In this document: positions 5,880 through 15,182 of the stretch, piece after piece
Position numbering within the stretch: position 1 is the stretch's first letter
How the letters are laid out: each line of letters opens with the position of its first letter
IMG/VR virus record: IMGVR_UViG_3300017708_001971
Span: 1-25,406 of that record
Length of the DNA stretch: 25,406 bases
Source of the DNA: a virus
Reading direction: 5' to 3' (one strand)
Made by a program: the position numbers and the translations under genes
The notes under the pieces: model-generated
Seen by the model: the letters and a program-made list of their open reading frames with translations, nothing else
Databases searched by the model: none
What the model was told of the DNA's origin: nothing

Positions 5880-6755
5880 ATGATGGATATAAAAAATAAA
5901 CTTTTCGCGGAAGGTCCAAGAGAAAATAAAAAAAGGCTTAGACCAAGAAAAAAATTCTTTGGTTATCAAGTTTTAGGATTTGGTTCTGGTGGTCTTGTTC
6001 CTGTCGAATACAACGTTCAATATTTAGTTGTTGCTGGCGGTGGCGGATCTGGTTTTGGAGAAACCAATAACTATCAATCTGGTGGTGGCGGAGCTGGTGG
6101 TTTTAGAAAAATTGATGATAAATCATTTCCCGTTTTTACTTTAACTGATTACCCTATAACTGTCGGAGCTGGTGGACCAATAGGTCCAGGAGTTGCAGAC
6201 TCTGGAGGAGGAGCTGGAGGAGACTCTGTTTTTAGTTCTATAACTTCAGCCGGAGGTGGAGCTGGAAGTGTACGAGGCGGAGGATCTGGCGGATCTGGCG
6301 GAGGCGGCGGTGGCGGAGGCCATGGCGGCGGAGCTGGAGATACACCCCCTACATCACCACCACAAGGAAATAACGGAGGACAAGGACACCCTAGTCACTC
6401 TCCCGTAGGAAACACAGGCGGCGGTGGAGGAGGCGGCGCTGGAGGCGCTGGTAGCGGCGGAGGTCCCACTTCAGGTGGCGGTGGAGGATCAGGCTCACCA
6501 TTTTCAATTACTGGCTCAGCTGTAACTTACGCTACAGGCGGCGCTGGACAACCAGGCCCAGGGGCAACTGGAACAAACGGAGAAGGCGATGGCGGCAGTG
6601 GGTCAGGACAGGGATCCGCAGGAAAAACTGGTGGTAGTGGAATAGTTATCATTAGAAGATTAACTGCAAGTTCAGCGACTACTAGCGGATCTGTTACTAC
6701 TTCAGGTGATGACACTATTCACAGCTTTACATCAGATGGAGTATACGCAGGATAA
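5880..6755 (+). CDS. Glycine-rich tail adhesin
   Basis: A 291-residue protein. A basic N-terminus (residues 1-27, KKRLRPRKKFF) leads into YNVQYLVVAGGGGSG (44-58), the entry motif of the glycine-rich domain family common in phage tail proteins. Residues about 58-250 are dominated by runs of Gly with Ser/Ala/Pro/Thr. A C-terminal cap (GSGIVIIRRL, then a Ser/Thr/Asp-rich end) closes the domain as in relatives. Poly-Gly sandwiches occur in tip adhesins of some T-even-like phages; that comparison is analogy. The gene makes a locally GC-rich patch (GGN codons) in an AT-rich genome. The start could be ATG 5880 or the adjacent 5883, with GGAG upstream. Confidence 0.8.
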   Translation: MMDIKNKLFAEGPRENKKRLRPRKKFFGYQVLGFGSGGLVPVEYNVQYLVVAGGGGSGFGETNNYQSGGGGAGGFRKIDDKSFPVFTLTDYPITVGAGGPIGPGVADSGGGAGGDSVFSSITSAGGGAGSVRGGGSGGSGGGGGGGGHGGGAGDTPPTSPPQGNNGGQGHPSHSPVGNTGGGGGGGAGGAGSGGGPTSGGGGGSGSPFSITGSAVTYATGGAGQPGPGATGTNGEGDGGSGSGQGSAGKTGGSGIVIIRRLTASSATTSGSVTTSGDDTIHSFTSDGVYAG

Positions 6756-6757
6756 TT

Positions 6758-7138
6758 ATGGCATACTTTGCAAAATTAGATTCTGAAAATAATGTTTTAG
6801 GACTTCACACTGTTAGTGAAGCTAATTGTACAAATGATGCGACAAATGTTAGATCAGAAGAAACGGGTATTTCATTTTTAACTAAAATTCACAAGTGGCC
6901 TTACTGGAAAGAATACAAAATAGATGGATCATTAAGAACAAGAGCTGCTGATATAGGTGGCACTTACAATACAGAACACGATGCTTTTATTCCACCTAAA
7001 CCATACCCTTCATGGAATTTTAATACTTCAAGTTTAAATTGGGATCCCCCAGTTGCTAAACCTACTACAGGTGGTCCCTATGATTGGGATGAAGATACTC
7101 AAGCTTGGGTTCAAGCAGTTGCACCAGGTGCACAATAA
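6758..7138 (+). CDS. Small conserved tail-associated protein
   Basis: A 126-residue protein starting MAYFAKLDSENNVLGLHTV, with a central GGTYNTEHDAFIPPKPYPSW and a C-terminal DWDEDTQAWV. I recognise this pattern from a widespread family in cyanophages and other marine phages, where it lies next to tail fibre genes; its exact role is unknown, and a fibre-assembly or fibre-tip function is plausible. GGA at 6750-6752 is a weak ribosome site 5 bases before the ATG. Its last 28 bases are shared, antisense, with the end of the methyltransferase gene on the other strand. It is the last virion gene before the accessory island. Confidence 0.7.
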   Translation: MAYFAKLDSENNVLGLHTVSEANCTNDATNVRSEETGISFLTKIHKWPYWKEYKIDGSLRTRAADIGGTYNTEHDAFIPPKPYPSWNFNTSSLNWDPPVAKPTTGGPYDWDEDTQAWVQAVAPGAQ

Positions 7139-7836
7139 AATATATTAAAAACATCTCTCCTATTAAAATAGTTTTCATACTTTTCTTCCAACATACCTAA
7201 AGTAAAAGTCTTTGCTTCTGAATCTTTCCATTTAGAATATTCTTGTATATTTTTTAAACAAGCCGTGGCTACATTATCAGTTATATCTTTTACCTCTATA
7301 GATTTAAACAAATGTTTGTTTTTATAAAAAGTTTCTAATGTTCTATAGCTACAATCAGTGCATATAAATAGACCACCTGGTTTTAATAATTTAATTACAT
7401 TTTTTAAAAATTTACTTTGATCTATATATAATGACATAGACTCTACGTTAGTAATAATGTCAAAAGTGTTTTTATCATAGGTTAAGTTTTCTGCGTTAGC
7501 GACTTTAAAATTTATATCTTTATGTTTTGATTTTGCATAATCAATATTAACATCTGTAATATCACAGCCATACACATTTTTAAAATTAAAGTATTTTTTG
7601 TAAAGAGCAACACCACCGCCTCTACCACATCCAACATCTAAAATATTTTTATTGTTAGTATCTATGTTTTCTAAAAGTTTTAAATACAAAGAAGCCTCTC
7701 TTTTCATAATAAAATCTTTGTCCAATAAATTGGATACAGGGTCATAACCATGATTCATAAAATCATAGAACTTTATTTTATTAAGCAGTTTATTGTGACG
7801 TGTGTAGTCAGCTATAATTTGTTTATATTCTATCAT
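7111..7836 (-). CDS. Class I SAM-dependent methyltransferase
   Basis: A 241-residue protein with the Rossmann methyltransferase layout. Motif I is ILDVGCGRGGG (65-75). An acidic residue ending strand 2 is D92 in VYGCDIT, post-I/motif II is FDIITNVESMSLY (125-137), and motif III is LLKPGGLF (150-157). An N-terminal NHGYDP (28-33) recalls the 'NxGY' segment of small-molecule methyltransferases. No target-recognition domain or DPPY/NPPY motif is present, which argues against DNA modification; a metabolite or lipid substrate is more likely, by inference. It is the third gene of a minus-strand operon: its ATG overlaps the stop of the membrane protein gene by ATGA. The C-terminus (YCAPGATA) is encoded antisense to the end of the 6758 gene and may have been extended at insertion. 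Confidence 0.85.
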   Translation of the reverse strand: MIEYKQIIADYTRHNKLLNKIKFYDFMNHGYDPVSNLLDKDFIMKREASLYLKLLENIDTNNKNILDVGCGRGGGVALYKKYFNFKNVYGCDITDVNIDYAKSKHKDINFKVANAENLTYDKNTFDIITNVESMSLYIDQSKFLKNVIKLLKPGGLFICTDCSYRTLETFYKNKHLFKSIEVKDITDNVATACLKNIQEYSKWKDSEAKTFTLGMLEEKYENYFNRRDVFNIFYCAPGATA

Positions 7837-8183
7837 AAATTAAAAAAATACCTTACCAATATAAACGAACTTATAAATATCCATATAGTGTTAAAAGCGA
7901 CTAATGTAGGTAAAAGTTTTTGTTCACTTGCCCATATTAATAGAGAAGAAGTCATTAATGTTATAATGTGTGCCCACCAAACTTCTGTTTGAAAAAATAT
8001 AGCAGGTAAAATAACAAACAGTTTACCCGACCAAGCCATTGCCTCCACGACGTTATATCTTTTTCTCCAATAACTTTTGTGCCACCACATGGAGTAAGAG
8101 TCTTTTATTTCTCTCCAACCAACATGATTGTAGATAATTAAAACTAAAACTAACCATAAAATAAAAGAGGCTAATAAAATCAT
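7833..8183 (-). CDS. Small integral membrane protein, about four segments
   Basis: A 116-residue hydrophobic protein with likely membrane segments at about residues 2-18, 47-64, 69-85 and 91-112. A cytosolic or periplasmic loop near 22-46 is rich in Trp, Tyr, His, Arg and Lys (SMWWHKSYWRKRY). It sits between an oxygenase gene and the methyltransferase gene, with 4-base ATGA overlaps on both sides, so the three are co-translated. No family is recognised. It could anchor the pathway at the membrane, carry a substrate, or be a small exporter; a holin is less likely because a holin-like gene exists at 23042 and this one is outside the lysis region. Confidence 0.7.
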   Translation of the reverse strand: MILLASFILWLVLVLIIYNHVGWREIKDSYSMWWHKSYWRKRYNVVEAMAWSGKLFVILPAIFFQTEVWWAHIITLMTSSLLIWASEQKLLPTLVAFNTIWIFISSFILVRYFFNL

Positions 8184-8623
8184 TCAAAGTCCATTGCTAA
8201 TGTATATCTGTCTAAATTGTAATCTGCCGAAGGAGAGCTATGAGTAATAGAATTGTCAAATATAACACAAGAGTTTTCTGGGCAGATAGTCTGTATTTCT
8301 TCTTTTTTATCTTTTAAAACAGTACCTAATTTTGATTTGTTTTGTAACATATAAACAATTGAAAAAGTGCCTGGATGAGTGTGCCAAGACTTAAAATCTC
8401 CTGTTGTATAGTTTGCCCAACATTTTAATATGGTTGAATTTTTTGGCATATATTTCTCTAGCTTTATTAATAGCGGATGTGTTGCCACGTTAAAATGCAG
8501 GTCTGCATTACTTTGTAAACCAGGGAAATCTTTACCTCTATCATATATTTTAGTTTTAACTACATTAAGCAAAGTGCTTTTTTCAGAGGTAGATAATATG
8601 TCGTAATAAACTTTATATTTCAT
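8180..8623 (-). CDS. 2OG-Fe(II) oxygenase-like protein, HxH type
   Basis: A 147-residue double-stranded beta-helix protein. The metal site reads WHTHPG (H81, H83), followed by a distal histidine H128 in FDNSITHSSP and an arginine R139 (LDRYTLAMDF) placed to bind 2-oxoglutarate. An HxH start instead of HxD is a known variant in the putative 2OG-Fe(II) oxygenase family to which this motif set belongs. A simple cupin is the alternative. It is the first gene of the minus-strand operon, with its ATG at 8621-8623 only about 7 bases from a TATAAG box. The substrate is unknown; small-molecule, peptide or protein hydroxylation are all possible. Confidence 0.75.
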   Translation of the reverse strand: MKYKVYYDILSTSEKSTLLNVVKTKIYDRGKDFPGLQSNADLHFNVATHPLLIKLEKYMPKNSTILKCWANYTTGDFKSWHTHPGTFSIVYMLQNKSKLGTVLKDKKEEIQTICPENSCVIFDNSITHSSPSADYNLDRYTLAMDFE

Positions 8624-8665: not shown

Positions 8666-9220
8666 ATGAAAAAAACAATATTATCTGAAACAGCTATTTA
8701 TACAGGGACCATAGACAGTCCTAAAGGATACGAAATAAACAGAGAAAAAATTAAAAAAGAAGCTATCCAAGGATATGTTTTAAATAATAGAAAAAGCTTT
8801 CGTGAAAATACTTGGGAGCACAAAGACTACAAATTAATGAGACACATATCTGAGTTAAGATTTGTAGAGGATTATATAAAAGATTTTTTTAAAATTAAAG
8901 CAGGAGTTGTTTTAGAACCAAAAAATTATTACGTTAATATCTTAGAACATTTAGAACAATCTTATTCTCGTAATAATTTAAACCTTAATTACTTATTAGA
9001 TTCACCAAACTACACTATGATTTATTGTGTGGATGTTACAGAAAAGTCTTCTTCTATAGTTATAGAATATGATGATCATTTAAGAATTAATAAATTACAT
9101 CAAGTCCCTGTAAAAAATAATATGTTTTTAATAATGCCATCAACATTAAGATATTTTATATCTGAAAATTTATCAGAAGAGCCAAACATTTTTATTAACA
9201 CTAATTATAGAGCAAAATAA
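8666..9220 (+). CDS. Probable degenerate 2OG-Fe(II) oxygenase-like protein (pseudo-enzyme)
   Basis: A 184-residue protein. Its C-terminal half has the strand pattern of the small phage-type 2OG oxygenases: YTMIYCVDV (116-124), then NNMFLIMPSTLRYFISEN (151-168), then IFINTNYRA (175-183). The corresponding segment in active relatives is of the form 'IFPS-L-H', but here the distal histidine position is Tyr (Y163). No HxD or HxH is found in the expected first-strand position. The N-terminal half (1-100) is helical and Lys/Glu-rich. The fold call is tentative. It is co-oriented with the next gene (TAATG overlap) and shares the divergent promoter. It may be an inactive partner or regulator of the active oxygenases. 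Confidence 0.5.
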   Translation: MKKTILSETAIYTGTIDSPKGYEINREKIKKEAIQGYVLNNRKSFRENTWEHKDYKLMRHISELRFVEDYIKDFFKIKAGVVLEPKNYYVNILEHLEQSYSRNNLNLNYLLDSPNYTMIYCVDVTEKSSSIVIEYDDHLRINKLHQVPVKNNMFLIMPSTLRYFISENLSEEPNIFINTNYRAK

Positions 9221-9846
9221 TGAATTTAAAAAATACCTTTTGGCATTTTCCTAAAGCTTTAAGTGATAGGTTTTGTAAAGATGTCATAGACTTTTCTACC
9301 AAGAGAAAGCCTGTAAAGGGCATAACAGGAATAGTTGGTAATCATAGAGATCAAATGAAAAACCCTTTATCGAAAGAGGAGTTTAAAGAAGTTAAAAAGA
9401 AAAGAAAGTCAGACATTGTTTGGTTAAACGAACCATGGATTCATAGAGAGATACTTCCGTTCATAAACACTGCAAATGAACAAGCTGAGTGGAATTTTAA
9501 TTGGGATCATTCAGAAGAAATACAGTTTACAAAATATAAAAAGGGCCAGTATTATGGTTGGCATAGAGATAGCTTTACAGACCCATACCCTGAAGGAAAG
9601 TATAAAAAAGGTAAAATTAGAAAATTATCAGTTACATGCCAGTTGTCCGATCCTAACGACTATGAGGGTGGTAACTTAGAATTAGGTGAGTTAAGTGAAG
9701 ACATGACTTTAAAAATTTATACGGCTGAAAAACAAAAAGGTTCAATAACTGTTTTTCCTTCATTCATTTACCATAGGATTACACCAATAACTAAAGGCAC
9801 TAGATATAGTCTAGTAGTTTGGAACTTAGGAGTGCCATTTAAATGA
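9220..9846 (+). CDS. Prolyl-4-hydroxylase-like 2OG-Fe(II) oxygenase (PKHD type)
   Basis: A 208-residue protein with the full dioxygenase set: YGWHRDSF gives H115 and D117, FPSFIYHRITPI gives the distal H185, and TKGTRYSLVVWNLG gives R195 for 2-oxoglutarate. The spacing, and the GGNLELGE segment between the halves, fit PKHD-type/prolyl-hydroxylase-like enzymes, which are known in bacteria and in cyanophages. The N-terminus (TFWHFPKALSDRFC) is the usual leading strand-helix region. It starts on the A of the previous stop (TAATG) and its end overlaps the halogenase start by 4 bases, so it is translated with the halogenase. The substrate is unknown; the family includes peptidyl and free-amino-acid hydroxylases. 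Confidence 0.85.
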   Translation: MNLKNTFWHFPKALSDRFCKDVIDFSTKRKPVKGITGIVGNHRDQMKNPLSKEEFKEVKKKRKSDIVWLNEPWIHREILPFINTANEQAEWNFNWDHSEEIQFTKYKKGQYYGWHRDSFTDPYPEGKYKKGKIRKLSVTCQLSDPNDYEGGNLELGELSEDMTLKIYTAEKQKGSITVFPSFIYHRITPITKGTRYSLVVWNLGVPFK

Positions 9847-11279
9847 TGAAATCTATTTGTGTAGTTGGAGGGGGCAGCGCTGGATTAACTTCAGCTATGA
9901 TACTCAAATCAAGATTTCCAACTATGAAAGTTAAAATAATTAAATCTGATAAGATAGGCATCATAGGAGTTGGCGAAGCATCTACAGAACATTGGAGTTA
10001 TTTTTTGCAGTTCTGTAACTTAGATTACCTTGAGTGTTTAAGAGAAACTGGAGCAACTTTTAAGTATGGTGTGCTGTTTAAAGATTGGATGAAACATGAT
10101 TATTTTAATAATCTAAACAGTCTTATAACAGATACACAAGCAGGTCAGTATTCCATAGCCATGGCTTACACAATAGCTTATGATTTAAAACCAGAAGAAT
10201 ATACCGACAGCTTAGCCCTACAAAACAAAGTTTATTTTCAAAGCGTGCCTACAAACCAATTTAATTTTAATACTTTTAAACTAAACGAATGGTTATTAAA
10301 AAAATGTGCTGAGAGAGGCATAGAAATTGTTGACGACGATATTGAAGATATAGTTGTTAAAAACAATAAAATTATAAAGTTAAAAGGTAAACAAGAACAT
10401 GTTGCTGATTTTTTTGTTGATTGCACAGGTTTTAAAAGACTATTAATTTCTAAATTAGGCGCTAAGTGGCAATCTTATAAAGAATATCTGCCTATGAATG
10501 AGGCCATTGCTTTTCCAACCAAAGACACAGATGAGTATCCTCCTTACGTTACAGCAAGAGCCATGAAAGCTGGTTGGATGTGGAGAACTCCCGTTAGAGG
10601 TAGATGGGGAAACGGTTATGTATTTGATAATAGATATATTAATGCTGAAGAAGCACAAAAAGAATGCGAAGAATATTTAGGACATAAAATTAAAATTGCC
10701 TCTAACATAAAATTTGATGCGGGCAGTTTAGACAAACCTTGGCAAGGTAATTGTATTGCTTTAGGTCTGAGCTCTAGTTTCGTAGAACCACTAGAGGCAA
10801 CATCAATTGGCTTTGGTATTAATCAATGTTTTTTATTTATACATATGTTGCTAAACTACGATCAACATATTATAGATGATTACAACGAAGACTTTCAATA
10901 TTTGATAGAGAACGTTAGAGACTACGTAATTATTCATTACATGGTAGATAAAAAAGATTCACCTTTTTGGAAAGAATTAAAATTAAACTTACCGGATTCT
11001 TTAAAGAAAAATTTAGCTATTTGGAAAAACCGACTTCCTATGCAAATAGATTTTAAAAGTAAATACTGTTTATTTTATCCTAATAACTATTCTTTAATAT
11101 TAAAAGAAATAGGGTTTTTTGATAAACAAAAAATAAAAGAAGAATACGAAATGTTGCCAAAAGAACTTAAAAAATGGTGTGAGTCTAAGATGAAATTTCA
11201 AAAGCAAAGACTTAACGATAGAAGTATGTGGATAAGTCACAAGAGTTTTTTAGAAAGCCTAACAAATGAAAGTAATTAA
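9843..11279 (+). CDS. Flavin-dependent (tryptophan-type) halogenase
   Basis: A 478-residue protein with all the signatures of the flavin-dependent halogenase family. These are the FAD-binding GGGSAG (9-14), the second flavin-contact GVGEAST (42-48), the segment ATFKYG with the candidate catalytic lysine K74, the signature GWMWRTP (W245, W247) and FVEPLEATSIG (313-323), which carries the conserved glutamate. Such enzymes use reduced FAD, oxygen and halide to make hypohalous acid that is passed to the lysine. Phage relatives exist; the cyanophage enzyme VirX1 is a characterised iodinating member. The substrate here is unknown and tryptophan is not assured. No flavin reductase is visible in the window. 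The start is at ATGATG; the end overlaps the next gene by 14 bases. Confidence 0.9.
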   Translation: MMKSICVVGGGSAGLTSAMILKSRFPTMKVKIIKSDKIGIIGVGEASTEHWSYFLQFCNLDYLECLRETGATFKYGVLFKDWMKHDYFNNLNSLITDTQAGQYSIAMAYTIAYDLKPEEYTDSLALQNKVYFQSVPTNQFNFNTFKLNEWLLKKCAERGIEIVDDDIEDIVVKNNKIIKLKGKQEHVADFFVDCTGFKRLLISKLGAKWQSYKEYLPMNEAIAFPTKDTDEYPPYVTARAMKAGWMWRTPVRGRWGNGYVFDNRYINAEEAQKECEEYLGHKIKIASNIKFDAGSLDKPWQGNCIALGLSSSFVEPLEATSIGFGINQCFLFIHMLLNYDQHIIDDYNEDFQYLIENVRDYVIIHYMVDKKDSPFWKELKLNLPDSLKKNLAIWKNRLPMQIDFKSKYCLFYPNNYSLILKEIGFFDKQKIKEEYEMLPKELKKWCESKMKFQKQRLNDRSMWISHKSFLESLTNESN

Positions 11280-11802
11280 AAATTATATAACAAAAGAGGA
11301 ATTAAACACAATTAAACAAACCTTAGAGAGCCCTGCTTTCCCTTGGTATTGTAATCATGATATTACTCCTAATACTTACAAGCTAGCTTCACACAGACAA
11401 AAATTTAAAAAAGAAGACAATACAAAACTATATTTAAAAAATTTTCAATTTACCCATACTTTTTACATTAACTATAATATTAGTAGCAGCGCTTATTTTA
11501 ATATACTTAATCCAATTCTTAAAAAATTAAATCCTCACGCTTTAATAAGAATTAAAGCTAATCTAAGACCCTACGTAGAAAAGCCTCATCAAACAGAATG
11601 GCATATAGATAATGAAGCACCTAGTGCTAAAACCGCTATTTTTTATGTTAACACTAACAATGGCTATACGTTATTTAAGAATAAAAAAATAATTAAATCG
11701 GAAGAAAATAAGATGGTTGTGTTTGATAGTAAACTTCAACATTGCGGTATGTCTAGCACAGATACTAAATACAGAATGGTAATTAATTTTAATTATGTCT
11801 GA
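11266..11802 (+). CDS. 2OG-Fe(II) oxygenase, HxD type
   Basis: A 178-residue protein with WHIDNEAPS (H113, D115), the distal H159 in DSKLQHCGMSS and R170 in KYRMVINFNYV, a complete Fe(II)/2-oxoglutarate site. The N-terminal half is helical and Lys/Asn-rich. It overlaps the halogenase gene by 14 bases, so it is probably co-translated with it. No ribosome site is visible. The substrate is unknown; its immediate coupling to the halogenase suggests the two act on the same or successive substrates. This is inference from gene order. Confidence 0.8.
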   Translation: MKVIKNYITKEELNTIKQTLESPAFPWYCNHDITPNTYKLASHRQKFKKEDNTKLYLKNFQFTHTFYINYNISSSAYFNILNPILKKLNPHALIRIKANLRPYVEKPHQTEWHIDNEAPSAKTAIFYVNTNNGYTLFKNKKIIKSEENKMVVFDSKLQHCGMSSTDTKYRMVINFNYV

Positions 11803-11819: not shown

Positions 11820-12320
11820 ATGATAACTAAATTTACCATTTCAGATCACCGAAAACATAAATTAATTTTGTTGGATTTAATTAAATCAATGCCTAACTTG
11901 TCTTCTAGAGTTAAGGGAAGTGATAATATAAGTAAATCAGATTGGTATTTTAATTCTTTATTTCCAAGAGAATATTGGGATTATTTTTCTAAACTATTAA
12001 ATCCTTGGTTTGAATCTATGAAAGTTAATTATGGTAACGAACATGTTAAAGTTATGATTGGTAATTATTGGTTTCAACAATACTCTACAAATAGCTCTCA
12101 CGAATGGCATAACCATCCAAATTGTAATTTTTCTAGTGTTTATTTTCTTGAATTACCCACCAAAGATATGATTACTGAATTTAAAGATTTTAAGAATATT
12201 GATGCAAAAGAAGGAGATATTATCACATTTCCAGCTTATTATTTACACAGATCAAAACCCAACAAAACTAAAAAAAGAAAAACTGTTATTGTTTTTAATA
12301 GTTCATTATCTCTGATATAG
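11820..12320 (+). CDS. 2OG-Fe(II) oxygenase-like protein, HxH type
   Basis: A 166-residue protein with the metal motif HEWHNHP (H97, H99), a family-like SSVYFLELP strand, EGDIITFPAYYLHRSKP providing the distal H143, and R153 as a possible 2-oxoglutarate ligand. This is the same HxH variant as the minus-strand protein at 8180-8623, and the two may be distant paralogues. The N-terminal 60 residues are helical. The ATG at 11820 has no Shine-Dalgarno; a TATAGT (11803-11808) lies 11 bases upstream. A plain cupin is the alternative call. Confidence 0.72.
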   Translation: MITKFTISDHRKHKLILLDLIKSMPNLSSRVKGSDNISKSDWYFNSLFPREYWDYFSKLLNPWFESMKVNYGNEHVKVMIGNYWFQQYSTNSSHEWHNHPNCNFSSVYFLELPTKDMITEFKDFKNIDAKEGDIITFPAYYLHRSKPNKTKKRKTVIVFNSSLSLI

Positions 12321-12390: not shown

Positions 12391-12993
12391 ATGTCTTTTA
12401 AGAAAAACAAATATCTACTATTTAAAAATATCATAACCCCTGATTCAGCGACCTTTTTAATGGGGTATTCTTTATTAAAAAGAAAAGTCTTATCAACTAT
12501 GCAAGAGACACGATACGTCTCTCCTAACGAAACCATCTTAGGAGGGTTTGGAGATTCCCAGGTATCGGCGACCTATAATCATTATGGAGATATAGCCATG
12601 GATACTTTGTTACAAGTTTTAAGACCTGAGATAGAGAGAAAAATTAAAATAAAATTAGTGCCAACATATTCTTATCAAAGAATTTATAAAAAAGGAGATA
12701 TTTTAAAAAGACATAAAGATAGAGTGTCTTGTGAAATATCAGGCACTTTAAATCTAGGTGGAGATCCTTGGCCTATATTTATTAAAAAAGATAAAAAAGA
12801 AATTAAAATTAATTTAAAACCAGGAGATATTTTGTTGTATCATGGTTGTGAATTAGAACATTGGAGAGAGCCTTTTTTAGGTAATTTTTGTGTGCAAGTG
12901 TTTTTGCATTACAACCAAGAAAGCTCTAAAAACCCCAATCTTTGGGATGGCAGGCCTCATCCTGGTTTACCAGCCTATTTTAAAAAAGGTTGA
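12391..12993 (+). CDS. 2OG-Fe(II) oxygenase, phage HxD family
   Basis: A 200-residue protein with the pattern I know well from cyanophage and other marine phage oxygenases: YQRIYKKGDILKRHKDR (H108, D110), SCEISGTLNLGG, then NLKPGDILLYHGCELEHWRE with the distal H157 and a final VFLHYN strand. The C-terminal NLWDGRPHPGLPAYFKKG is an extension after the core. Unlike the other oxygenases here it is a common phage family, so it may belong to the phage backbone rather than to the tailoring pathway. It is preceded by its own promoter-like sequence and a 70-base gap. No clear ribosome site is present. Confidence 0.85.
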   Translation: MSFKKNKYLLFKNIITPDSATFLMGYSLLKRKVLSTMQETRYVSPNETILGGFGDSQVSATYNHYGDIAMDTLLQVLRPEIERKIKIKLVPTYSYQRIYKKGDILKRHKDRVSCEISGTLNLGGDPWPIFIKKDKKEIKINLKPGDILLYHGCELEHWREPFLGNFCVQVFLHYNQESSKNPNLWDGRPHPGLPAYFKKG

Positions 12994-13025: not shown

Positions 13026-15182
13026 ATGGCTTTAAAAAAAGTACAATTTTTACCTGGATTCAATAAACAACTTACCGAAACCCAAGCTGAAGGACAATGG
13101 GTAGATGGTGATAACGTTAGATTTAGATATGGCTCACCAGAAAAAATAGGTGGTTGGTCACAGTTAGGCACTGATAAACTTACTGGTGCGGCGAGAGCTA
13201 TGCATCATATTGTAAATAGTAGCGGCGTAAAATATTCTATCATAGGGACTAACAGAATATTGTACGCTTATTCAGGAGGTGTCTTTTATGACATACATCC
13301 GATTAAAACGACTACAACTTTAACCAATGCTTTCAGCACTACAAATGGATCATCTACAGTTACAATAACATTCTCTACGGGACATGGCTTAAATCCTGGA
13401 GACATAATTTTATTAGATAATTTTACTACAATTACAAACTCTAATTTCAGCTCTTCTGATTTTGATGATAAAAAATTTATGGTAACTAGCACGCCAACCA
13501 ACGTTACGATAACTATAACAATGCCATCAAATGAAACTGGATCAGGTGCTACCACATCTGGAGGTATTAGAGTTCAATCTTATTATCCTGTCGGACCTGC
13601 AGAACAGCTACCTGGATTTGGTTGGGGTTTAGGTTCTTGGAGTGGTGAAGCAGCAAATCCTCAAACGTCAACTTTAAACGGAGCTTTAGGTGACAACACG
13701 GCAGGAACAGGTGGGTCAGGAACGAGCGTAACATTAGCGAGCACAACAAACTTTCCAACAACAGGAACGAATTTTGTAAAAGTAGGAACAGAGGAAATAT
13801 CTTACACAGGAGTTTCTGGTAATGACTTAACAGGAATTACAAGAGCAGTTAGAGGGACAACAAGAGCTGCACACTCGGATGGAGCTACTGTAACAAATAC
13901 GTCAGACTTTGTAGCGTGGGGCGAGGCAGCATCTGGAGATTTAGTTATTGATCCAGGTCTTTGGTCTATAGATAATTTTGGTAATAAAATTATTGCCTTG
14001 ATTCACAACAAACAAGTTTTTGAATGGAATGCAGATTTAGCTAACGCAAACGCAACCAGAGCAACTATTATTACAGGTGCGCCAACAGCATCGAGAGACA
14101 TGATTGTATCTACACCAGATAGACACTTAGTATTTTTTGGTACAGAGACAACTATCGGTGATGAATCAACACAAGATCAAATGTTTATCAGATTTTCTAA
14201 TCAAGAGGATATTAATACATACACACCTACAGCAACCAACACGGCGGGTACACAGAGGCTGGCCGATGGTTCAAGAATTATGGGAGCTGTTAGAGGTAGG
14301 GATGCAATTTATGTTTGGACAGATACTGCTTTATTTACACAAAGATTTATTGGTCCACCATTTACATTCGGTTTTGCTCAAGTGGGAACTAACTGCGGAT
14401 TGATAGGACAGAATGCAGCTGTTGAAGTAGACGGAGCTGCATACTGGTTTTCAGAAAATGGTTTCTTTAAATATGCGGGTGCACTTCAATCGTTACCATG
14501 TTTAGTAGAAGATTTTGTTTTTGATGATTTAAATACTACAGCTAACCAACTTGTAAATGCTGGAATAAATAATTTGTTTGGAGAGATTAATTGGTTTTAC
14601 TGTTCTTCAGGATCAACAGTCGTTGATAGAGTTGTGACATATAATTATTTTGAATCTACACCTCAAAGACCAATATGGACAACAGGCACGTTGGATAGAA
14701 CAACATGGCAAGATTCTGCAGTGTTTGGAAAACCTCATGCTACAGATTATGATGCTGGTTCAGATAATTCTTATGATGTAGTCGGTAACACAGACGGATG
14801 CACTATATACTATGAGCACGAGACTGGAACAGATCAAGTTACATCTACAGCAACGACAGCTATAACTTCAAATATACAGTCTGGAGACTTTGATATAAGT
14901 CAAGGCGGTGATGGTGAGTTCTTTGCAAAGATTAGAAGATTTATACCTGACTTTTTAACACAAACAGGTAACACACAAATTACATTAAACTTAAGAAACT
15001 TTCCAAATAACACTGAGGCAAGTTCGGCTCTCGGTCCTTTCACAATCTCGTCATCAACAGAAAAGGTGGATACAAGGGCTAGAGCAAGAGCAGTTTCTTT
15101 AAAAGTTGCAAATACAGCTGCAGCACAGAGTTGGAAACTTGGTGGATTTAGGTTAGATATACAACCAGACGGAAGAAGATAA
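13026..15182 (+). CDS. gp10-like tail/packaged-DNA stabilisation protein (beta-propeller)
   Basis: A 718-residue protein. The N-terminus (QFLPGFNKQLTETQAEGQW, DNVRFRYGSPEKIGGW) and SGVKYSIIGTNRILY are signatures of the gp10-like tail protein family, whose propeller forms part of the short tail. Residues 95-295 hold two inserted beta modules: FSTTNGSSTVTITF...GHG (about 103-180) and SVTLASTTNF...VGTEEISYTG...AVRGTTRAAHSDGATV (about 234-290). The propeller resumes at about 297 with VAWGEAASGDLVIDP and RDMIVSTPDRHLVFFG. The C-terminus is Thr/Ser-rich with a basic finish. No Shine-Dalgarno is visible before the ATG. In a podovirus this is expected next to the gp4-type adaptor, so the island separates two parts of one assembly. 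Confidence 0.75.
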   Translation: MALKKVQFLPGFNKQLTETQAEGQWVDGDNVRFRYGSPEKIGGWSQLGTDKLTGAARAMHHIVNSSGVKYSIIGTNRILYAYSGGVFYDIHPIKTTTTLTNAFSTTNGSSTVTITFSTGHGLNPGDIILLDNFTTITNSNFSSSDFDDKKFMVTSTPTNVTITITMPSNETGSGATTSGGIRVQSYYPVGPAEQLPGFGWGLGSWSGEAANPQTSTLNGALGDNTAGTGGSGTSVTLASTTNFPTTGTNFVKVGTEEISYTGVSGNDLTGITRAVRGTTRAAHSDGATVTNTSDFVAWGEAASGDLVIDPGLWSIDNFGNKIIALIHNKQVFEWNADLANANATRATIITGAPTASRDMIVSTPDRHLVFFGTETTIGDESTQDQMFIRFSNQEDINTYTPTATNTAGTQRLADGSRIMGAVRGRDAIYVWTDTALFTQRFIGPPFTFGFAQVGTNCGLIGQNAAVEVDGAAYWFSENGFFKYAGALQSLPCLVEDFVFDDLNTTANQLVNAGINNLFGEINWFYCSSGSTVVDRVVTYNYFESTPQRPIWTTGTLDRTTWQDSAVFGKPHATDYDAGSDNSYDVVGNTDGCTIYYEHETGTDQVTSTATTAITSNIQSGDFDISQGGDGEFFAKIRRFIPDFLTQTGNTQITLNLRNFPNNTEASSALGPFTISSSTEKVDTRARARAVSLKVANTAAAQSWKLGGFRLDIQPDGRR

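Follow-up and report, generated by a model that had tools for sequence, protein, structure and literature searches.

The stretch of DNA analyzed here (hereafter the window, a 25,406-base virus contig that is possibly a fragment) carries a flavin-dependent halogenase (FDH) gene as an optional member of a variable island of 2OG-Fe(II) oxygenase genes, lying between a glycine-rich adhesin/tail gene and a virion structural gene, an arrangement that is new here. Phage halogenases as such are already known (VirX1, cyanophage prnA), and no natural substrate is given for any of them, VirX1 included, in the literature examined. The genomic context is informative in this respect: the gene is present in some but not all versions of a tailoring island at a host-recognition locus, a setting shared with VirX1, and this suggests a testable job for the enzyme. 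The genes of the island and its borders are as follows.

5880..6755, + strand: glycine-rich putative tail adhesin, a candidate substrate (PF21722, E 3e-15)
6758..7138, + strand: small protein after the adhesin, recurring at this place (phrog_7759)
7111..7836, - strand: SAM-dependent methyltransferase (Methyltransf_11, E 3e-18)
7833..8183, - strand: small protein with hydrophobic, membrane-like stretches in its sequence; homologs adjoin other halogenases
8180..8623, - strand: 2OG-oxygenase-like protein, HTH replacing HxD (phrog_81)
8666..9220, + strand: 2OG-oxygenase-like protein without recognizable Fe ligands in the expected places (phrog_81, E 1e-7)
9220..9846, + strand: 2OG-Fe(II) oxygenase, prolyl-hydroxylase-like (PF13640, E 5e-15; HRD at 115, H185)
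9843..11279, + strand: flavin-dependent halogenase, 478 aa (Pfam, PHROG, motifs and AlphaFold2 model; K74, E318, FAD motif at 9-14, GWMWRTP at 244-250)
11266..11802, + strand: 2OG-Fe(II) oxygenase-like protein (phrog_274; HID at 113, H159)
11820..12320, + strand: 2OG-FeII_Oxy_5 protein, HNH replacing HxD (PF13759, E 2e-10)
12391..12993, + strand: 2OG-Fe(II) prolyl-hydroxylase-type enzyme by ligands and fold, with the database label 'ferrochelatase'
13026..15182, + strand: virion structural protein, 718 aa, right border of the island (phrog_3287)

The halogenase gene is a single open frame from ATG to TAA whose product matches PF04820 (Trp_halogenase) in a Pfam profile search far beyond chance (E 6e-88; 296 bits, the cut-off being 21), and phrog_2928 'tryptophan halogenase' with E 1e-99. 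The sequence elements listed in a preliminary description of this DNA are all where it had placed them, and its numbering of K74 was right: the GxGxxG FAD motif reads GGGSAG (residues 9-14), K74 sits within GATFKYGVLF, FVEPLEAT occupies residues 313-320, and the WxWxIP motif is kept as GWMWRTP (W245, W247 and P250), with T at the position where most relatives have I. K74 and E318 align to the catalytic Lys/Glu pair of characterized enzymes (K79 in PrnA and Thal; E346/E358). The same description had made its reading depend on K74 facing the flavin tunnel, an orientation that is predicted by the alignment to the FDH lysine, and at that level the point stands. Of 138 halogenase relatives scored for K74, E45, W245, W247, P250, E315 and E318, 137 retain the catalytic lysine and 133 the catalytic glutamate. 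An AlphaFold2 model built from 18 viral sequences (pLDDT 89.6, pTM 0.90) has as its best structural match the tryptophan 5-halogenase PyrH (2WET; Z 43.1, 464 residues aligned at 2.7 A, 27% identity), which has the same catalytic Lys and Glu, and aligns to VirX1 with Z 35.3. Family, fold and catalytic residues make the 478-aa protein a variant-A flavin-dependent halogenase. The gene is also under strong purifying selection, with pairwise dN/dS of 0.02-0.06 against close relatives (with saturated dS in the comparison with the most distant of them). Because fold, Lys/Glu conservation and low dN/dS agree, we conclude that the gene is maintained for catalysis; the expectation that the enzyme should be active is thus borne out as far as residues, modeled fold and selection can speak to it, and the protein is very probably an active enzyme.

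Free tryptophan is unlikely to be what it acts on, since the motifs of the tryptophan pocket are absent. Of the Trp1, Trp2 and Trp4 signatures that define tryptophan halogenase groups A and B (PMC8269204), the Trp1 position reads ASTEHW, there is no HxF (Trp2) between residues 88 and 140, a stretch about 26 residues shorter than its PyrH counterpart, and the Trp4 lid position reads YCLFYPNN as against YHGFESYS in AbeH. Membership in either group is ruled out by motif, and the window protein differs here from PyrH, which carries tryptophan-binding motifs. VirX1 likewise has no tryptophan lid, and in PMC7948982 its lack of a helical lid is said to leave an open pocket that accepts bulky substrates and iodide. 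By analogy with this lidless enzyme and its open pocket, the acceptor of the window halogenase is probably larger than tryptophan.

The halogenase is closely coupled to its neighbors. The end of the upstream hydroxylase gene overlaps the halogenase start by 4 bases (ATGA), and the downstream gene starts 14 bases before the halogenase end, exactly as had been described. Both products carry HxD...H metal ligands (HRD115/H185 and HID113/H159). The additional claim that such coupling is unusual must be reversed. Across 46 non-redundant related viral halogenase loci with both neighbors visible, a 2OG gene lies on at least one side in 34 and on both sides in 19, against about 12 and about 1 expected if 2OG genes were as frequent there as they are at greater distance (14%); the corresponding binomial value of 2e-11 is no strict probability, related contigs sharing history. 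Overlap is also the norm at these loci (median -4 upstream, -8 downstream). The pairing is annotated in HTVC008M, and for the cyanophage S-SSM6a cluster it was proposed in 2021 that halogenase and hydroxylases act jointly, on one product (PMC7824862). It is plausible that halogenase and hydroxylases share the same target in the window as well. The S-SSM6a setting is otherwise different, being that of a jumbo cyanophage with carbamoyltransferase and sugar genes and a distant halogenase (the S-SSM7 row of our tree). HTVC008M, whose PrnA gene overlaps a 2OG (phytanoyl-CoA dioxygenase) gene, is a pelagiphage in which a 2OG array adjoins a glycine-rich gene; it differs in being a myovirus, in the 37% identity and other clade of its halogenase, and in the roughly 8 kb that separate halogenase and glycine-rich gene.

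No flavin reductase had been seen in the window, and a PF01613 profile search of the 25,406-base record, which may be a fragment, agrees. The same search finds none in the 18 other halogenase-bearing phage records, so that the count is 0/19 viral records against 13/14 control genomes; because of this difference we regard absence of the reductase as the rule for phage halogenases, VirX1 included. The proposal that FADH2 comes from the host holds insofar as an external supply is needed; the supplier could be an unrelated reductase rather than that of the host.

The phage itself appears to be HTVC023P-pelagiphage-like, judging from gene content and order. The 718-aa protein is 48% identical to its homologs in the Pelagibacter phages HTVC023P and HTVC027P and in 023Pt_psg01, and all three share the window's gene order: tail genes, an island with 2OG and 'ferrochelatase' genes, the 718-aa homolog, more structural genes and an opposite-strand helicase. 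The window carries no polA, the gene on which the clade of these phages is based. As an ocean virus related to phages that infect SAR11, a highly abundant group of bacteria, the window phage would have a SAR11 host. The HTVC023P-type group, which PMC12753301 ranks first in abundance among known pelagiphages, has been surveyed and its co-located 2OG and 'ferrochelatase' genes, which occupy the same island position as in the window, were noted (PMC9599517); the word 'halogenase' is absent from that survey. Unlike the window, HTVC023P, HTVC027P and 023Pt_psg01 contain no PF04820 gene in a profile search. A halogenase is thus unreported for HTVC023P-type phages in the literature examined and is new here.

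In 30 contigs with a 718-aa homolog and enough upstream sequence, the interval upstream of that gene is a 2OG-oxygenase array in 29, usually following a glycine-rich adhesin gene and its small companion, and sometimes inverted. The halogenase is optional in it (PF04820 in 5 of 31 virus contigs searched). The window's island is AT-rich, with 29% G+C compared with 40% and 36% on its two sides. The array persists without a glycine-rich gene in some contigs (L181, L184, L187 and L200). Within the phage group, halogenase presence is not significantly associated with that of the glycine-rich gene (6/23 vs 0/7, p 0.29; the six cases being five of the 30 survey rows plus the separate contig L008). The Trp and Tyr contents of adhesins are no different whether or not their island has a halogenase (p 0.20 and 0.31, respectively); those with a halogenase are lower in Pro (p 0.004) and higher in His (p 0.03), in a set of eight tests that are uncorrected and ignore relatedness, so that these two differences are given no weight.

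The adhesin neighborhood is also seen outside pelagiphages. In Syn10, S-RIM44, P-RSM6, P-TIM40, S-WAM1, Sf-FP1, Sf-CH11 and S-SZBM1 the distance between a halogenase and a PF21722 glycine-rich gene is 0.5-1.3 kb, with 2OG genes close by, the Syn10 gene (CPUG_00131) being that of VirX1. Twelve phage records, complete or large, contain a PF21722 gene, and in 8 of them a halogenase is no more than 5 kb from it, where 1.4 are expected and none of 20,000 shuffles does as well, although these eight cyanophage cases belong mostly to one orthologous lineage and are not independent. In S-SRM01 a halogenase directly precedes an annotated 'adhesin tip complex', the only PF13640 gene of that genome being 24 kb away. 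The halogenases of P-SSM2, S-H38, S-PM2 and S-MbCM6, on the other hand, are far from glycine-rich genes or in a genome without one.

Phylogenetically, the window halogenase represents a new branch, made up only of viral sequences, within a known kind of enzyme. The 47 rows of its clade all come from phage contigs; the P-SSM2 type branches off at its base, and support for the union is 100/100. The closest named proteins are accordingly 'PrnA' of P-SSM2, S-H38 and S-SCSM2R (41-42% identity over the full length), which differ in being encoded in auxiliary-gene regions, far from or without glycine-rich adhesin genes. VirX1 (cyanophage Syn10, PDB 6QGM) is likewise a variant-A FDH of viral origin that shares the catalytic set, and its gene, too, adjoins glycine-rich adhesin-like genes and lies upstream of 2OG genes. 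It is nevertheless only 22% identical over the structural alignment, 530 rather than 478 aa long, and from a cyanomyovirus rather than an HTVC023P-like pelagiphage. Membership of the window halogenase in the VirX1 lineage is rejected, since VirX1 falls in another clade, and the two clades are separated by starred branches that hold bacterial rows; because of this separation the adhesin neighborhood was arrived at on more than one occasion. A bacterial donor is also rejected: bacterial relatives are distant (26-37% identity) and outside the viral clade, 2OG genes are rare near them and no glycine-rich gene was seen there. Two apparently bacterial matches at 55% and 44% identity (L104 and L120, from Maricaulis and Verrucomicrobia TMED56 MAGs) are phage contigs carrying the phage island.

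Among the partner genes, the one labeled 'ferrochelatase' deserves correction. All 19 sequences compared keep its H108, D110 and H157, and its model (pLDDT 93.8) has as best PDB match in Foldseek the Pseudomonas putida prolyl-4-hydroxylase 4iw3 (E 2e-8, prob 1.00), which was solved in complex with a protein substrate, EF-Tu. The best 50 structure matches are all of 2OG-oxygenase type, and the viral collagen prolyl hydroxylase vCPH is also among the matches. Profile searches gave no ferrochelatase match in Pfam or NCBIfam, the protein has 200 aa where that family has about 300, and with its 2OG fold the ferrochelatase identity is ruled out. Ligands and modeled fold indicate that what HTVC023P-type and other pelagiphages carry as a 'ferrochelatase' partner (phrog_2954; PMC9599517) belongs to the 2OG-Fe(II) oxygenases, more precisely to the prolyl-hydroxylase type, a correction that removes a heme/iron story from the literature. 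The phrog_274 label 'DNA endonuclease V' (denV) for the gene at 11266-11802 likewise looks wrong, as the 2OG ligands HID and H159 are present. The metal site may differ in the two proteins with HxH (HTH at 8180-8623, HNH at 11820-12320), as far as sequence can tell. The gene at 8666-9220 overlaps that of the intact hydroxylase (9220-9846) by a single base, and its product is possibly a pseudo-enzyme partner of that hydroxylase. The small protein at 6758-7138 would be a chaperone of the adhesin.

We propose, tentatively, that the halogenase depends on host FADH2 and tailors, together with the hydroxylases, a large acceptor involved in host recognition, perhaps the adhesin; of the accounts considered here this one comes nearest to an even chance of being right. 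FADH2 from a host reductase would allow the enzyme to form C4a-hydroperoxyflavin and oxidize chloride, bromide or iodide to HOX, which would pass down the tunnel to K74; K74 with E318 would then halogenate an electron-rich aromatic group in a pocket without tryptophan-specific motifs. The gene belongs to a swappable 2OG-Fe(II) tailoring island that sits between the receptor-binding (glycine-rich adhesin) gene and the structural gene of HTVC023P-type pelagiphages, and halogenase and hydroxylases would most likely modify a single macromolecular acceptor that serves in host recognition, with the adhesin/tail protein as first candidate. That protein-type hydroxylases and a halogenase stand beside an adhesin gene fits modification of the adhesin; judged by position only, the host surface is just as good a candidate for modification. 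FDHs that act on peptides or proteins exist (MibH, SrpI; PMC10286304), and in T2-type gp38 tip proteins glycine-rich motifs hold up hypervariable receptor loops (PMC12892980). That the acceptor is the phage's own adhesin is possible but doubtful, and some weight is left for other acceptors or none. Against the proposal stand the islands that lack a glycine-rich gene, the non-significant association between that gene and the halogenase, the lack of a Trp/Tyr difference among adhesins, the phage halogenases located far from glycine-rich genes, and the shared ancestry of most of the eight cyanophage cases. The halogenase as a virion component in its own right is unsupported, the virion proteome table of S-SZBM1 omitting both the halogenase and its glycine-rich neighbors (PMC9146016).

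The strongest competitor, though somewhat unlikely, is that the cassette acts during infection on the host surface, where halogenase and hydroxylases would make or modify a glycan or lipid, rather than on a phage protein; this could block superinfection, for instance, or keep progeny from sticking to debris. Among the window's island genes that were scanned with profiles, none was recognized as a glycosyltransferase or sugar gene. Common glycans, moreover, lack the electron-rich aromatic groups that FDHs require in an acceptor. HTVC023P and HTVC027P do carry glycosyltransferases shortly after the 718-aa homolog, and the S-SSM7 halogenase stands among sugar nucleotide genes. Pelagimyophage host-recognition clusters mix tail fibers with glycosyltransferases, with surface alteration against co-infection as a proposed role (PMC7029224), and capsule decoration was proposed for the S-SSM6a cluster (PMC7824862).

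It is unlikely that the cassette makes a small halogenated and hydroxylated metabolite such as a signal, toxin or antibiotic. A halogenated amino acid-sugar metabolite was proposed in S-SSM6a (PMC7824862), antibiotic protection was proposed for cyanophages (as cited in PMC2984593), and VirX1 takes many small heterocycles (PMC8407142); but no scaffold-building enzyme (NRPS, PKS, carbamoyltransferase or similar) is seen in the island, its hydroxylase matches are of the protein-acting prolyl-hydroxylase type, and the tryptophan pocket motifs are missing. Finally, loss of halogenation in favor of another flavin-dependent oxidation, for which one might point to the T in GWMWRTP, to phage PF04820 proteins with Gln at the catalytic Glu and to the inactivation of a studied FDH by Glu to Gln (PMC8407142), is very improbable for a protein that keeps K74, E318, both Trp and Pro under strong purifying selection.

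The preferred account, tailoring of a host-recognition acceptor, can be put to a concrete and cheap test of substrate, given that two separate halogenase clades recur beside glycine-rich adhesin genes and 2OG hydroxylases. If adhesins are indeed halogenated, their modification by enzymes would add a level of host-range control, and a class of natural substrates would be at hand for VirX1. The broadest version, in which adhesin-linked halogenases of both the window and VirX1 types act with 2OG hydroxylases to modify glycine-rich receptor-binding proteins of marine phages post-translationally, is an unlikely generalization.

Other phage halogenases have tRNA/hli or psbA surroundings; in three of these, Gln takes the place of the catalytic Glu. 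Gln at this position occurs in S-PM2, one S-RIM44 copy, the second copy of Sf-CH11 (in a tRNA/hli region) and Campylobacter phage CP21 (PF04820 genes L124 4007-5443, L125 3995-5470, L127 3866-5263 and L138 3995-5194), and such proteins, going by this residue, may not halogenate. Because genome regions differ and Gln variants exist, PF04820 genes in phages probably have more than one role.

In some contigs (L152, L156, L167, L168 and L183) all or most of the 2OG island is turned around with respect to the structural genes, and these inversions point to cassette exchange. Some islands also contain two or three halogenase genes in tandem (L029 3406-7752, L037 5995-9100, L131 and L193), and those of L029 come from different clades.
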